DNA of 64,000 nt from positions 124,001 through 188,000 of the forward strand of contig NZ_FNSO01000002.1 of assembly GCF_900105945.1 (NCBI RefSeq). The letters run 5' to 3'. Below, piece after piece: positions 6,621 to 63,414 of the stretch (position 1 is the first letter of the stretch; every line of letters starts with the position of its first letter). Both the position numbers and the translations under genes were made by a program. The notes below the pieces were generated by a model. The model saw only the letters and a list, made by a program, of their open reading frames with translations. It had not been told where the DNA came from and did not search any database. Source of the stretch: Amycolatopsis tolypomycina. Lineage in GTDB: Bacteria; Actinomycetota; Actinomycetes; Mycobacteriales; Pseudonocardiaceae.

Positions 6621-7655
6621 ATGACCGGCAACGCGGCTCACTCCTCCTCCGAAGCGGTGGCATTCGCCGACCGCATCGGTGAGCTGCTCACGACCATACG
6701 CTCCGCCGAGGCCGAACTTGGTGCGCTGCTGGTGGAAATCGAGCAGCGTGGAGTGCTGGAGCTGTTCGGATACCGTTCTGCAGCACGGCTTCTGGAGCAC
6801 CTCGCCGACGAGCCCAAGCCTTTCGTGGAACGTCTGATGAAGCGTGCCCGCTTGGTCAATCCCGGCCGCAACCTCGATGGCAGCCCGATTCCCGCCCTGG
6901 CACCCGCGACCGGTGTCGCTGCCCGGGCTGGGCGGCTGAGCAACCCGATGATCGACGTGATCACCGATGTCCTGACCCAGGTTCCGCCCGAGCATCGGTT
7001 GAGTGCCGAGGCCAACCTGCTGACCTTCGCCGAGGAGGCTGGCCACAAGCAAGTTGCCGCTCTCGGTGCCCGCATCCTCGCCCATCTCGTCCCCGACGGC
7101 CCCGCCCCCGACGACACCGAGCCGGTGGCGCCGACGCGGGAGTTGTTCCTGCGCCGGAAAAGAACCGGGGTATGGGAGCTGAGCGGCCGGTTCGACGACG
7201 AAACCGGCACCCGCGCCAACGCGTTGCTCGACGCCCTGGCCGAACGCCGCACCGGAGACGACGGCCCCGACTTCCGCACCACCCCGAAACGCTACGGTGA
7301 TGCCTTCTCCGACGCCGTGGATCTCGCCCTCAACTCCCCGGACCTGCCGATGCAGGCCGGGGAACGCGCCCACGTCATGGTCGCCGTGTCGTTGGCGGAT
7401 CTGAGGTCCGGGGTCGGGAAGGCCACCCTCGGCGACACCGGGACGATGACTGCCGCCGAGGCCCGGGTCCACGCCTGCGACGCCATGATCATCCCCGCGG
7501 TCCTGGGCGAGAAAAGCGAACCCCTCAACCTCGGCCGCCTCCGGCGCCTGATCTCCGCAGGCCTCCGCCGAGCCCTGTTCCTCCGCGACCGAGGCTGCGC
7601 CTTCCCCGGCTGCCACCGCCCACCCCGACACTGCCAGGGCCACCACATCCGGCAC
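6621..7655 (+). CDS. DUF222/HNH endonuclease, 5' exon (gene interrupted by a group II intron)
   Basis: These 345 codons start at ATG 6621 after GGAGG. They encode an N-terminal DUF222 (13E12-repeat) helical domain, then the beginning of an HNH nuclease: CAFPGCHRPPRHC and the His-His-Ile-Arg-His of the first HNH strand. The coding sequence then runs into GTGCG, the start of a group II intron. Without splicing the frame stops at 7748 and the product lacks the Asn and final His of the nuclease site. Joining codon 345 to position 9813 restores HHIRHWADGG and a 410-residue protein, the normal length for this family. Such genes are multicopy in Pseudonocardiaceae and mycobacteria; their role is unsettled. 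Confidence 0.88.
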
Positions 7656-8242
7656 GTGCGCCATGAGGCGCGTGTTTATCCGATCGGAGGTGCAAGACCT
7701 CCGACGCTGGATCGTCACAGCGGTTCGGTGAAGCTGAGGGCAGCCTGACCTGCGGGAATGGGCAGGTTGAGGTGGCAAGCGGCCCTGACAAAGTCGAGTC
7801 GTGCCAGTATCGCCAGATGGTGCGGGCTCGGTGAGCGAGACGAGAAGGTATACGAATAGGAATCAGTGTCTGAAGCCTCGTTATGTGGAGCCGACTCGAA
7901 CCTGGCGGATATGGGTCGGTAGTGCAGTGCGCGTGAACCAAGTGGTAGGGGTAGCGTCCGCCCGGGAATTGTTCTCGGGCAGCCTGTGGAGAAAGTCTGT
8001 GGCGTATTCACAGGGACTGCCGGGGTAAAGCTGGGTGCCTCACTCGTCGATCGGGAACACGTGAACATGGGAACCACCGCAAGCCTTCCATAAACGGGTC
8101 ACAGCCGGTGGTCTGATGACGGATAGGCGCATTGCCTGCCGAGAGGCTTGCGATGGGGCGGAGTCGCCGTAGTACTCCGAGGACGGGAAAGCCGTCCACA
8201 TGGGGAAGGGCGACAGCGAGACGAAGCAGGGAAGTTGAGGTA

Positions 8243-9700
8243 ATGCCAGAAGAAGCCTCACCGGTGAACATCGGTGATCTGCTGTTGGTGCCGTTCACCG
8301 CAGGGCAGCGGGTACTGGGAATGCAAACGAAGCTGCACCGTTGGGCGGCGGCCGATCCCGGCCGCCGGTTTGATGATCTCTATAACCTCGTGGCCGACCC
8401 CGCATTCCTCGTCACGGCGTGGGAACGGGTGTCGGGGAACACCGGAGCACGCAGCGCGGGTGTCGATCGGCGGACTGTCCGCTCGATCACCGAATCGAAA
8501 CTGGGTGTTGTCGGGTTGTTGGAGGAAATCCGGGCTGATCTGAAGGCTCGGGCGTTCCGTCCGCTCCCGGTCCGGGAACGGCACATTCCCAGAACCGGCG
8601 GGAAGACGCGCCGGCTGGGGATACCGACCGTGACCGATCGGGTCGTTCAAGCCTCGCTGAAGCTGGCCCTGGAACCGATCTTCGAGACCGGGTTCCGGGA
8701 CTCCAGTTATGGTTTCCGGCCCAGGCGCCGGGCCCAGGACGCCGTCGAGGAGATCCGCCACTATGCCCAGCAGGGCTATGAGTGGGTCTTCGAGGGCGAC
8801 ATCGCCGCCTGTTTCAACGAGATCGACCACACCGCCCTGCTCGGGCTGGTGCGGAAACGGATCAAGGACAAGCGGATCCTGGAGCTGATCAAGGCGTTCC
8901 TGCGCGCGGGAATCCTCAGCGAGGACGACGCCGACCGGGACACCCATTCCGGAACCCCTCAGGGCGGCATTCTGTCGCCACTGCTGGCCAACATCACTCT
9001 CTCCGAACTGGACGACTATTTCCACCAGATCTGGGAGAACCACAGGAACTCCTGGACCCGGGCGCGCCATCGCCAACGCGGCGGCGCAACATTCCGGCTG
9101 ACCCGTTATGCCGACGACTTCGTCGTCCTGGTCAACGGAACCCGAGACCACGCGGAGAAACTATGGGATGAGATCGGTGCGATCCTGGACCGGATCGGGC
9201 TTCGGCTCGCCCCGGAAAAGACACAGATCGTGCACATCGACGAGGGATTCGACTTCCTGGGATTCCGCATCCAGCGGCACACTCAATACGGAAGCGACCG
9301 GAAACTGATCTACACCTATCCGTCGAAGAAGTCGATGACTTCCATCAAACGGAAGGTGAAGGCAGCGACCAAGCGGATCACCCATCAGGACGCGGACCGA
9401 CTGTTCCGGCAACTCGGGACGATGACCCGCGGATGGGCCCAGTACTTCCGGCACAGTTCCTCCAGCAAGGCCTACCACCATCTCCAGCACTACCTGTGGT
9501 GGCGGGTCTGGGAATGGCTGAAGAACAAACACCCCCGCACCAGCAGACGGTGGATCATCCGCCGCTACTACAACCGGTGGTGGCCGGAATACAACAGTGT
9601 CGCACTCTGGCAACCCGCCACGATGACCATTCAGCGTTATCGCTACCGGGGCCACCGGATACCGACACCATGGGACAAACCAGGCGTCTCGCCTGCCTGA
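8243..9700 (+). CDS. Group II intron reverse transcriptase/maturase
   Basis: The product is 485 residues from ATG 8243 (TTGAGG just upstream); an in-frame ATG at 8132 would add 37 residues that do not look conserved. Reverse transcriptase blocks are present: RHIPRTGGKTRRLGIPTVTD, YGFRP, a GDI segment ending in FNEIDH, GTPQGGILSPLLANI, and the catalytic YADD at residues 289-292. The maturase domain X follows (RGWAQYFRH and the WWRVWEWLK region). After it I see no Cys-rich HNH endonuclease domain, so the protein is of the En-minus type. It should help its own intron splice and reinsert by reverse splicing, priming cDNA synthesis from host DNA ends. Confidence 0.93.
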   Translation: MPEEASPVNIGDLLLVPFTAGQRVLGMQTKLHRWAAADPGRRFDDLYNLVADPAFLVTAWERVSGNTGARSAGVDRRTVRSITESKLGVVGLLEEIRADLKARAFRPLPVRERHIPRTGGKTRRLGIPTVTDRVVQASLKLALEPIFETGFRDSSYGFRPRRRAQDAVEEIRHYAQQGYEWVFEGDIAACFNEIDHTALLGLVRKRIKDKRILELIKAFLRAGILSEDDADRDTHSGTPQGGILSPLLANITLSELDDYFHQIWENHRNSWTRARHRQRGGATFRLTRYADDFVVLVNGTRDHAEKLWDEIGAILDRIGLRLAPEKTQIVHIDEGFDFLGFRIQRHTQYGSDRKLIYTYPSKKSMTSIKRKVKAATKRITHQDADRLFRQLGTMTRGWAQYFRHSSSSKAYHHLQHYLWWRVWEWLKNKHPRTSRRWIIRRYYNRWWPEYNSVALWQPATMTIQRYRYRGHRIPTPWDKPGVSPA

Positions 9701-9714
9701 CGGCGACTCGTGGA

Positions 9715-9812
9715 GAGCCCGGTACTCGGAAACGGGTACGCCGGGTTCGGGAAAGCGGCAAGGGGAAACGACCCGGCGAAATCCGGACACCACGCCCCCT
9801 GCCGACTCTCAC
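9715..9812 (+). ncRNA. Group II intron domains V and VI
   Basis: Domain V (9715-9748) begins GAGCCCGG and closes with CCGGGTTC around a GGAAAC tip. It has the AGC triad and a two-base bulge opposite, as in catalytic domain V. Domain VI (9749-9812) folds as a stem, pairing GCGGCA (9754-9759 region) with TGCCG (9800-9804 region). Its base pairs GAAAG with CTCTC, leaving A9805 unpaired 8 bases from the 3' end. That is the expected position of the branch-point adenosine. The pairing was worked out by eye. Confidence 0.85.
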
Positions 9813-10010
9813 TGGGCAGACGGCGGCCCCACAAACTTGAACAACCTGATCCTGATATGCGCCCACCACCACCGGCTCCTGCACCGCTCCGGCTGGGAAG
9901 TCCGCATCGCCCCCGACGGCCTCCCCGAATTCCTCCCACCAGCATTCATCGACCGGCGCCGAAAACCGCGGCGCAACAACCTCCACGAACCCCTGCCATT
10001 CGCAGCCTGA
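9813..10010 (+). CDS. DUF222/HNH endonuclease, 3' exon
   Basis: These 65 codons and a stop continue the HNH protein after intron removal. They begin with WADGG, then NLNNLILICAHHHRLLH, which supplies the Asn and the final His cluster of the HNH site. The tail ends in LHEPLPFAA, a typical end for this family. There is no start codon or ribosome site of its own, so it is expressed only through splicing. A hairpin at 10021-10046 ends the transcription unit. The lack of any frameshift or stop suggests that the interruption is recent or that splicing is maintained. Confidence 0.88.
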   Translation, partial: WADGGPTNLNNLILICAHHHRLLHRSGWEVRIAPDGLPEFLPPAFIDRRRKPRRNNLHEPLPFAA

Positions 10011-50958: not shown

Positions 50959-50969
50959 GCGAAGTGCCG

Positions 50970-51334
50970 TGGAGGTGCCGGGAATTGAACCCGGGTCCTC
51001 TGGCGTATCAACAGGGCTTCTCCGTGCGCAGTCCGCTACGTCTCTGCTTGGCTCCCTCGGTCACGCGAACAAGCCGAGGTGACGAGCCCAGCCACTGTTT
51101 GCTTCACGACTGTTCCCCGTGGCCGGGACAGTCGCTGAGCCTCCTAGCTGATGCCGGTACCCGGGCCGGAGGCGAACCCGGGCCGACAGAGTCGCACTCG
51201 CTCAGGCGGCGAGGGCGAACTCGCGCTGACTGGAGTCGGCGCTTATTTGGTTGCGATGACGCTTACGGTGGTCTCTCGCCTGCACCGGCACGCTTCTCCT
51301 GAATCAACGTCCAAAGTCGAAACCGTTCACCCCC
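50970..51334 (-). ncRNA. ssrA: tmRNA (transfer-messenger RNA)
   Basis: On the minus strand the RNA begins GGGGGTGAACGGTTTCGAC and ends with a TTCAATTCCCGGCACCTCCA acceptor arm. The first seven bases pair with CACCTCC (one G-U), and a terminal A is left as discriminator; CCA is not encoded. The tag reading frame ends in DSSQREFALAA and TGA, the actinobacterial degradation-tag ending. About 365 bases is normal length. With SmpB, encoded 5 kb away, it rescues ribosomes stalled on broken messages and marks the products for proteolysis. The first tag codon is not certain from sequence alone. Confidence 0.96.
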
Positions 51335-60955: not shown

Positions 60956-61029
60956 TAGCGGGGACAGGATTTGAACCTGCGACCTCTGGGTTATGAGCCC
61001 AGCGAGCTACCGAGCTGCTCCACCCCGCG
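60956..61029 (-). tRNA. Initiator tRNA-Met (CAU), copy 1
   Basis: On the minus strand the 74-base gene starts CGCGGGGTGGAGCAGCTCGG and has a CTCATAA anticodon loop (CAU). It is an initiator because three G-C pairs close the anticodon stem (GGG and CCC flanking) and the first acceptor pair is a mismatch (C1 with U72). TTCAAATC is the T loop. CCA is not encoded. An identical copy lies at 63341-63414. Confidence 0.95.
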
Positions 61030-63340: not shown

Positions 63341-63414
63341 TAGCGGGGACAGGATTTGAACCTGCGACCTCTGGGTTATGAGCCCAGCGAGCTACCGAGC
63401 TGCTCCACCCCGCG
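63341..63414 (-). tRNA. Initiator tRNA-Met (CAU), copy 2
   Basis: It is identical over all 74 bases to the gene at 60956-61029, including the C1-U72 mismatch, three G-C pairs below the CAU anticodon loop and the lack of an encoded CCA. The sequence immediately upstream of the gene differs (TTGTGGCTCCTACC compared with TTGTGGTACTTGAA), so the promoters are not identical. Confidence 0.95.

Follow-up and report, generated by a model that had tools for sequence, protein, structure and literature searches.

What is a group II intron doing in the middle of the active-site motif of a nuclease gene, and how did it come to be there? The gene is a DUF222/HNH gene in Amycolatopsis tolypomycina. It lies in the window analysed here, a stretch of 64,000 nucleotides (nt) taken from contig NZ_FNSO01000002.1, positions 124,001 to 188,000. 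A preliminary description, made from the letters of this window, had proposed that the gene is split inside its HNH motif by an intact group II intron, that the nuclease depends on splicing, and that the conserved HNH sequence could serve as a reusable homing site. The follow-up confirmed that the insert is a group II intron, which splits the DUF222/HNH gene between HHIRH and WADGG. It also makes it probable that the intron is mobile and that its lineage has come to specialise in one target, the codons of the HNH active site in the multicopy DUF222/HNH genes.

All the parts that the preliminary description had placed along the insert were found where it had put them: the GTGCG and AC ends, domains V and VI, the branch-site A 8 nt from the end, and a reverse transcriptase (RT) with YADD. 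When 7656-9812 is removed the frame is uninterrupted, encodes 410 residues and joins HHIRH to WADGG, as had been claimed, and the same join is read in 14 uninterrupted paralogues of a second species. Read unspliced, the frame meets a stop at 7748 and the remaining HNH domain is lost; the catalytic roles of the HNH motif residues are assumed here. The covariance search which the preliminary description had suggested gave a match to Rfam RF00029 (46.5 bits, cut-off 40) over domains V and VI. The same stretch has a fold z of -3.75 against shuffled sequence, with the branch-site A left unpaired. The Rfam D1-D4 models gave a sub-threshold match only, of 27.3 bits against 35. The RT scored 374 bits with TIGR04416 (cut-off 300), and its sole Pfam matches were RVT_1 and GIIM (61 bits), so that it has no endonuclease (En) domain; the nearest solved chain to it by sequence is 6me0_C, a maturase.

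The insert therefore has the GUGYG/AY ends, the domains V/VI with a bulged A and the RT/maturase of a group II intron, and also the pairing, known from IIA and IIB types, between exon-binding site 2 (EBS2) in the intron and intron-binding site 2 (IBS2) in the exon. The corresponding EBS1-IBS1 pairing was not found by the tests made, which leaves room for a weak or relocated EBS1. Chance or an annotation artefact was ruled out by the Rfam and TIGR04416 matches, the repeated copies at one site and the uninterrupted paralogues.

The genome (10.36 Mb in 4 contigs; G000 below) holds seven full-length copies of the intron, 99-100% identical to the one in the window. All seven sit at the same codon, in seven different DUF222/HNH paralogues, and their junctions were also recovered by pattern search. 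The RT frame is open in every copy, and the host frame is open across the join in five of the seven, those of L002 and L005 being broken in the 5' exon. When the genome was searched for DUF222 with Pfam, ten matches came up. The seven hosts account for eight of them, a remnant for one, and an uninterrupted gene at C4:221816, whose protein is without the His pair, for the last. Three truncated DUF222 remnants in the genome showed no HNH motif by pattern, and an uninterrupted DUF222/HNH copy with the His pair was not found in this genome. Because the sole uninterrupted gene is without the His pair and the remnants are without the motif, all seven of the target-bearing genes found are occupied.

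A search for the RT at E <= 1e-200 found it in two of 80 genomes of the genus, its own and that of a second species, G001. There are six copies in G001, with RTs 86-87% identical to the window's and RT frames open in all six. Every one is at the same codon, in hosts that form a divergent DUF222 subfamily, and the host frames are open across the join in five of the six within the stretches examined (L034 is the exception). Among 16 further G001 stretches, 14 carry an uninterrupted HNH motif which reads straight through the junction and two (L169 and L174) show no HNH motif by pattern; this empty-site count covers those 16 stretches, with other DUF222 subfamilies of G001 outside it. Three of the empty sites (L164, L165 and L168) are identical to the occupied L032/L036 over exon positions -40 to -1. 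A DUF222 domain with an HNH motif after it is the layout of the DUF222/HNH protein family (13E12 type), and the split gene has it. An uninterrupted G001 paralogue scored 150 bits with PF02720 and 20.2 bits with PF01844 (cut-off 21.4) at residues 327-366, and the junction falls after residue 341. The preliminary description had proposed aligning unsplit genes of the same genome; the junction was confirmed by the 14 paralogues of G001, and no suitable copy was found in the intron's own genome. Since these related genes do join at the predicted point, the description passes the refutation test that it had set itself on this. There is strong support for its idea that the HNH sequence of a multicopy gene can be used as a homing site again and again, as all 13 full-length copies in the two genomes lie at one site and were inserted separately.

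That the insertions were separate is indicated by the seven copies in the window's own genome. Their introns are 99.4-99.9% identical, while the last 300 nt of the 5' exon are 84-93% and the first 190 nt of the 3' exon 84-96% identical, and the synonymous difference (pS) is 0.41 and 0.32 in the exons against 0.006 in the RT. Since the host exons diverge far more than the introns, the copies arrived separately, and judged from these comparisons the insertions are also recent. A single insertion into a gene that was then duplicated, or spread by gene conversion, in its split state would suit host genes that are themselves multicopy and dispersed, and the G001 exons look mosaic, so conversion may occur. 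Such a history is nevertheless very improbable, given that at synonymous positions the exons differ 50 to 70 times as much as the RT does, that DNA beyond the host genes is unrelated among the copies except for short stretches at the gene ends, and that 14 G001 paralogues are still empty, three of them sharing a 40-nt 5' flank with occupied ones. Duplication of the split gene as the route of spread was rejected in view of the synonymous divergence.

The base pairing between intron and exon suggests how the site is found. In an alignment of 71 intron 5' regions (65 with distinct exons), the best complementarity to the exon lies at intron positions of about 228-235. The HNH introns carry AUGUGG there, which makes 6 of 6 pairs with exon -13 to -8 in all variants of both genomes. 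The IBS2 hexamer begins with the third base of the first His codon, takes in the whole second His codon and ends two bases into the Ile codon (Ile or Val over the variants). When the 13 occupied sites and the 14 empty ones are compared, this exon window has three variable positions (C/T, C/T and A/G), each of them facing a guide G or U. Because a guide G pairs with C or U and a guide U with A or G, synonymous changes do not hide the site. Just two of the 4096 possible hexamers can form all six pairs at every one of the 27 sites. They are GUGUGG and AUGUGG, and the intron carries the latter. Relatives pair at the EBS2 place as well, with at least 6 pairs in 34 of 63 (1000 exon shuffles gave a mean of 13.8 and a maximum of 23), and in seven near relatives with other targets the hexamer there makes 4 or 5 of 6 pairs in the same register. 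Ten HNH motifs were found by pattern in 28 DUF222 loci (both intron-bearing genomes included), and nine of the ten pair 6 of 6: four are G001 copies already counted and five come from G026, while the failing one (3 of 6) comes from G004. Altogether the AUGUGG segment apparently guides the intron to the codons of the two active-site histidines.

Several observations weigh against the reading of a specialised lineage. Matches of 6 of 6 to shifted exon windows also occur elsewhere in the introns (for example at 464, 497 and 498 in G001 and at 116, 452 and 453 in G000), with position 228 being the sole full match that is common to both introns and lies at the EBS2 place. A related intron, L122, has the same ATGTGG at a different site in an HNH gene, where it makes 4 of 6 pairs only, so the guide letters are partly inherited. 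The site-specific lineage is known from two genomes only, and three of the 13 host genes are broken upstream of the intron. An EBS1-IBS1 match was found in neither HNH intron, by hairpin-anchored or by unanchored tests, and excision of the intron RmInt1 is reported to require EBS1-IBS1 and to need nothing further (PMC3123198). Finally, gene conversion between paralogues after insertion could have changed exon -7 to -1.

The hairpin at the EBS1 place was compared across the relatives. Of 63 relatives, 35 have a hairpin that makes at least 6 pairs with exon sequence whose last base is -1 or -2, whereas 1000 shuffles gave a mean of 14.0 and a maximum of 24; its length is 34-36 nt in all of them save L043 (26 nt). 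The hairpin measures 26 nt in one HNH intron and 27 nt in the other, where the pairing runs are 4 and 5 bases long, and because the seven nearest relatives have 34-38 nt the shortened hairpin is a trait of the HNH lineage. EBS1 matches were present in just two of these seven (six pairs in L123 and seven in L127; two in L124-L126 and L122, four in L128), which weakens the case that a loss of EBS1 is special to the HNH lineage. The unanchored EBS1 search gave a weak signal, with 16 of 70 rows above the 95% null, and the signal in the relatives became clear when the search was anchored to the hairpin. No hexamer pairs fully with exon -6 to -1 of all occupied sites, even within either genome alone; a universal one is precluded because position -4 is both C and G. 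The introns L032 and L033 of G001 are 100% identical and adjoin ATCCCC and GTGTTC. The lineage may manage without EBS1, it may have a weak substitute for it, or the exons may have been changed afterwards by gene conversion.

If a substitute exists, EBS1 may be weak or may have moved to a neighbouring D1 loop, such as GUGGU at intron position 287 in G000, and exon recognition would then be ordinary. We consider this possible but doubtful. Four own exon variants were tried against GTGGT at 287, of which three make 5 of 5 pairs with it at exon -5 to -1 and one makes 4 of 5; the stretch around it differs between the two introns, and by the test used EBS1 matching is patchy even among near relatives with a full-length hairpin (2 of 7). 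However, the GTGG-words at 117, 344 and 453 pair just as well, and neither the lack of a hexamer that fits all occupied sites of either genome nor the unlike exons beside identical G001 introns is expected of it. A bolder form of the specialised-lineage reading, offered tentatively, is that the lineage gave up EBS1-IBS1 and homes by EBS2 alone onto the catalytic His-pair codons. The G and U of the guide would absorb all the codon variation seen, so that the intron would read a protein motif rather than a fixed DNA sequence, would occupy every such nuclease copy in a genome, and would place repeated nucleases under splicing control.

In the mechanism proposed for the specialised lineage, the excised intron RNA and its RT/maturase would reverse-splice into DNA between the codons for HHxxx and W (retrohoming). 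The EBS2 guide AUGUGG would pair with the codons Y-CAY-RU of the His-(Ile/Val) motif, while for the IBS1 bases beside the insertion point no matching guide was found. Most likely the intron persists because it retrohomes into a gene that occurs in many copies and may be mobile in its own right. We infer from sequence this route, splicing in the cell, and hence a nuclease made solely from spliced RNA; by analogy with RmInt1 and Ll.LtrB, such RNA would yield little HNH protein. Dependence of the nuclease on splicing, which the preliminary description had claimed, would follow from the frame, and is tempered by the missing EBS1-IBS1 match and the broken hosts. These two facts would also fit an intron that no longer splices and is a mere disrupter of genes, homing by EBS2 without EBS1 and leaving truncated nucleases, and correctly ligated exons of RmInt1 in vivo are reported to be below 1% (PMC4238363). 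Such an intron is unlikely here: if it could not be excised it could not copy by retrohoming, yet the copies are recent and numerous, 10 of the 13 hosts have an open frame to either side of the intron within the sequence examined, and domains V/VI and the RT are intact.

Two known introns are similar in part. RmInt1 of Sinorhizobium meliloti has as its host the transposase gene of ISRm2011-2 (PMC4238363, PMC3123198, PMC8914252), and it is said to limit this host insertion sequence (IS) through poor exon ligation (PMC4238363). RmInt1 and the present intron share an En-less RT/maturase, a repeated host gene that is mobile (here possibly so), a host product that needs splicing (here by prediction) and site-specific spread; they differ in that RmInt1 has an IS transposase host and needs EBS1-IBS1, whereas here the host is DUF222/HNH and the visible match is EBS2 on catalytic codons. 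The En-less RT and the homing into multicopy, possibly mobile genes are RmInt1-like, a likeness that rests on domain content and hosts, as the RT tree includes no named reference RTs. Ll.LtrB of Lactococcus lactis is a IIA intron with an endonuclease domain. It sits in a conjugative relaxase gene and is reported to lower relaxase expression (PMC6003770). It too is a group II intron that restrains the DNA-cutting enzyme of a mobile element from within its gene, in one plasmid gene as against all target copies of a multicopy chromosomal family here. A literature search, with subscription journals mostly outside it, found no paper joining a group II intron with DUF222 and, among the titles listed for group II introns with 13E12 and HNH endonuclease, none on this subject.

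The nearest relatives give a clue to the lineage's origin. The RTs of the window and of G001 form a pair (100/100) in a 90-row RT tree, inside a nine-row clade (97/87) with L123-L127, L128 and L122. In L123 and L124 the intron breaks the Transposase_mut profile after the greater part of it, at position 260 of 379. The flanks and RT of L125 and L126 are the same as in L124, and L127 has a similar flank, so that L123-L127 are listed as having mutator type hosts, the last three by comparison with L124 and not by Pfam. The host of L128 is transposase-like by eye only, and that of L122 is a DUF222/HNH gene, interrupted at its second His motif between HHRYK and HHAT. The introns in mutator transposases are inserted after CxxHLIRN, and the L124 exon CACCTGATCCGCAAC differs from CACCACATCCGCCAC at 3 of 15 bases; such similarity is plausible as a bridge for target switching. 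Because most of the nearest relatives sit in transposase genes, the HNH lineage looks like a case of target switching within a transposon-homing clade, which recalls RmInt1 with its home in ISRm2011-2. The transposase-homing relatives share with the HNH introns their RT kinship and insertion in conserved host regions; they have other targets, and a hairpin of 34-36 nt at the EBS1 place, matched in some. The preliminary description had taken the location in a conserved motif to be exceptional, which did not hold up, since several relatives of the clade sit in conserved parts of transposase genes.

Pfam was run on 30 host flanks and found a family in 18 and none in 12 (L049, L051, L052, L053, L054, L064, L066, L071, L084, L111, L113 and L116). 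The 18 comprise nine with a family named transposase, six with HTH_21 alone (read as IS3), the helix-turn-helix set of L086, a tyrosine-recombinase on the opposite strand at L107, and DUF222 at L122. HTH_21/IS3 type hosts are those of L008, L041, L042, L045, L046, L050 and L055, ISL3 type hosts those of L038 and L090, and DDE_Tnp_1 hosts those of L102 and L109. A branch of the tree (100/98) has on one of its sides all nine rows labelled IS3-type (seven by HTH_21, two by motif), along with L039/L040 and rows that bear no label. The element names IS3, IS256, ISL3, IS5, IS630 and IS1380 are ones that we presume to apply, apart from the Pfam names cited.

Some of these relatives have features of their own. 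L038 and L090 are far apart in the RT tree, yet both split the ISL3 transposase profile at position 87 of 240. L107, L110, L111, L116 and L076 lie antisense to an apparent tyrosine-recombinase HDLRHT motif, which Pfam supports for L107 and does not for L111 and L116, and L059, L072 and L105 lie antisense within what is by eye tRNA-like sequence. The A. tolypomycina genome itself has a second intron (L008, G000:C4:4370084-4371753), whose RT is 55% identical and which follows WITDI in a transposase gene of IS3 type, and a remnant of another group II intron (L179, G000:C4:267430-267701), of which just the RT C-terminus and domain V/VI are present.

Wider searches were made for the RT and the site. 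With the threshold set at E <= 1e-190, genomes with the RT numbered 7 among 390 from the family, 3 among 397 from the order and 2 among 394 from the class, where each count includes the intron's own genome and few candidates per genome were scored; the additional RTs are 63-65% identical. A scan of genome_contigs, which may omit records near the window's genome, covered the best 80 of 160 relatives, 45-60% identical, and none was seen at the HNH site. Closer RTs, P0001-P0016, come from metagenomes; they are 82-91% identical and were compared as proteins, without genomic context. A shorter site pattern matched one of 397 genomes in the sample of the order (G001 is outside that sample), namely the intron's own, with seven matches, and the site pattern had no match in viral_contigs.

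The DUF222/HNH hosts have less the look of a housekeeping gene than of one that is repeated, dispersed and possibly mobile. Eleven uninterrupted DUF222/HNH copies of G001 (L180-L190) resemble a mobile unit, in that their common sequence begins at TCACYCGATCGTG, some 84 nt ahead of the first Met (some 69 nt in L190), and their similarity is lost at or near the stop codon, with unrelated flanks. All six G001 intron copies are head-on to replication. An insertion strand bias was considered and rejected, as 13 of the 14 empty G001 paralogues are head-on too, and the bias therefore belongs to the host gene. Head-on orientation was also seen in 19 of 20 HNH-bearing copies of G001 and 10 of the 11 best-scoring copies of G223, more weakly in G026, and was mixed in G002, by a count made by hand; all these head-on orientations assume that the terminus lies opposite dnaA.

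Features of the split gene and its intron, in window coordinates.
Feature	Position	Strand	Evidence
5' exon, DUF222/HNH gene through ...CQGHHIRH	6621..7655	+	PF02720 95 bits within 6621-7748; 345 codons open
IBS2, CCACAT, exon -13..-8	7643..7648	+	EBS2 pairs 6/6, at each of the 27 sites
Group II intron, 2157 nt, GTGCG...AC	7656..9812	+	seven full-length copies in the genome, 99-100% identical
EBS2, ATGTGG, intron positions 228-233	7883..7888	+	aligns with EBS2 of relatives
Shortened hairpin at EBS1 place, 26 nt	7957..7982	+	without match to exon -6..-1
RT/maturase, 485 aa	8243..9700	+	TIGR04416 374 bits; RVT_1 and GIIM; TTG-started frame from 8132
Domains V and VI, unpaired branch-site A at 9805	9713..9812	+	RF00029 46.5 bits; fold
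3' exon from WADGGPT..., with the remaining HNH domain and the stop codon	9813..10010	+	frame continues; uninterrupted paralogues show the same layout

Elsewhere in the window, on the minus strand, are a transfer-messenger RNA (tmRNA) gene at 50967-51334 and two tRNA genes at 60956-61029 and 63341-63414.

With 13 occupied and 14 empty sites of one lineage, the bases of a homing site can be read directly. They suggest that the RNA guides of mobile introns may be tunable to amino-acid motifs through wobble pairing, and they raise the question whether EBS1 is always needed, which bears on programmable intron tools. For the intron family itself, the finding offers a route by which introns may pass between transposase and nuclease genes.

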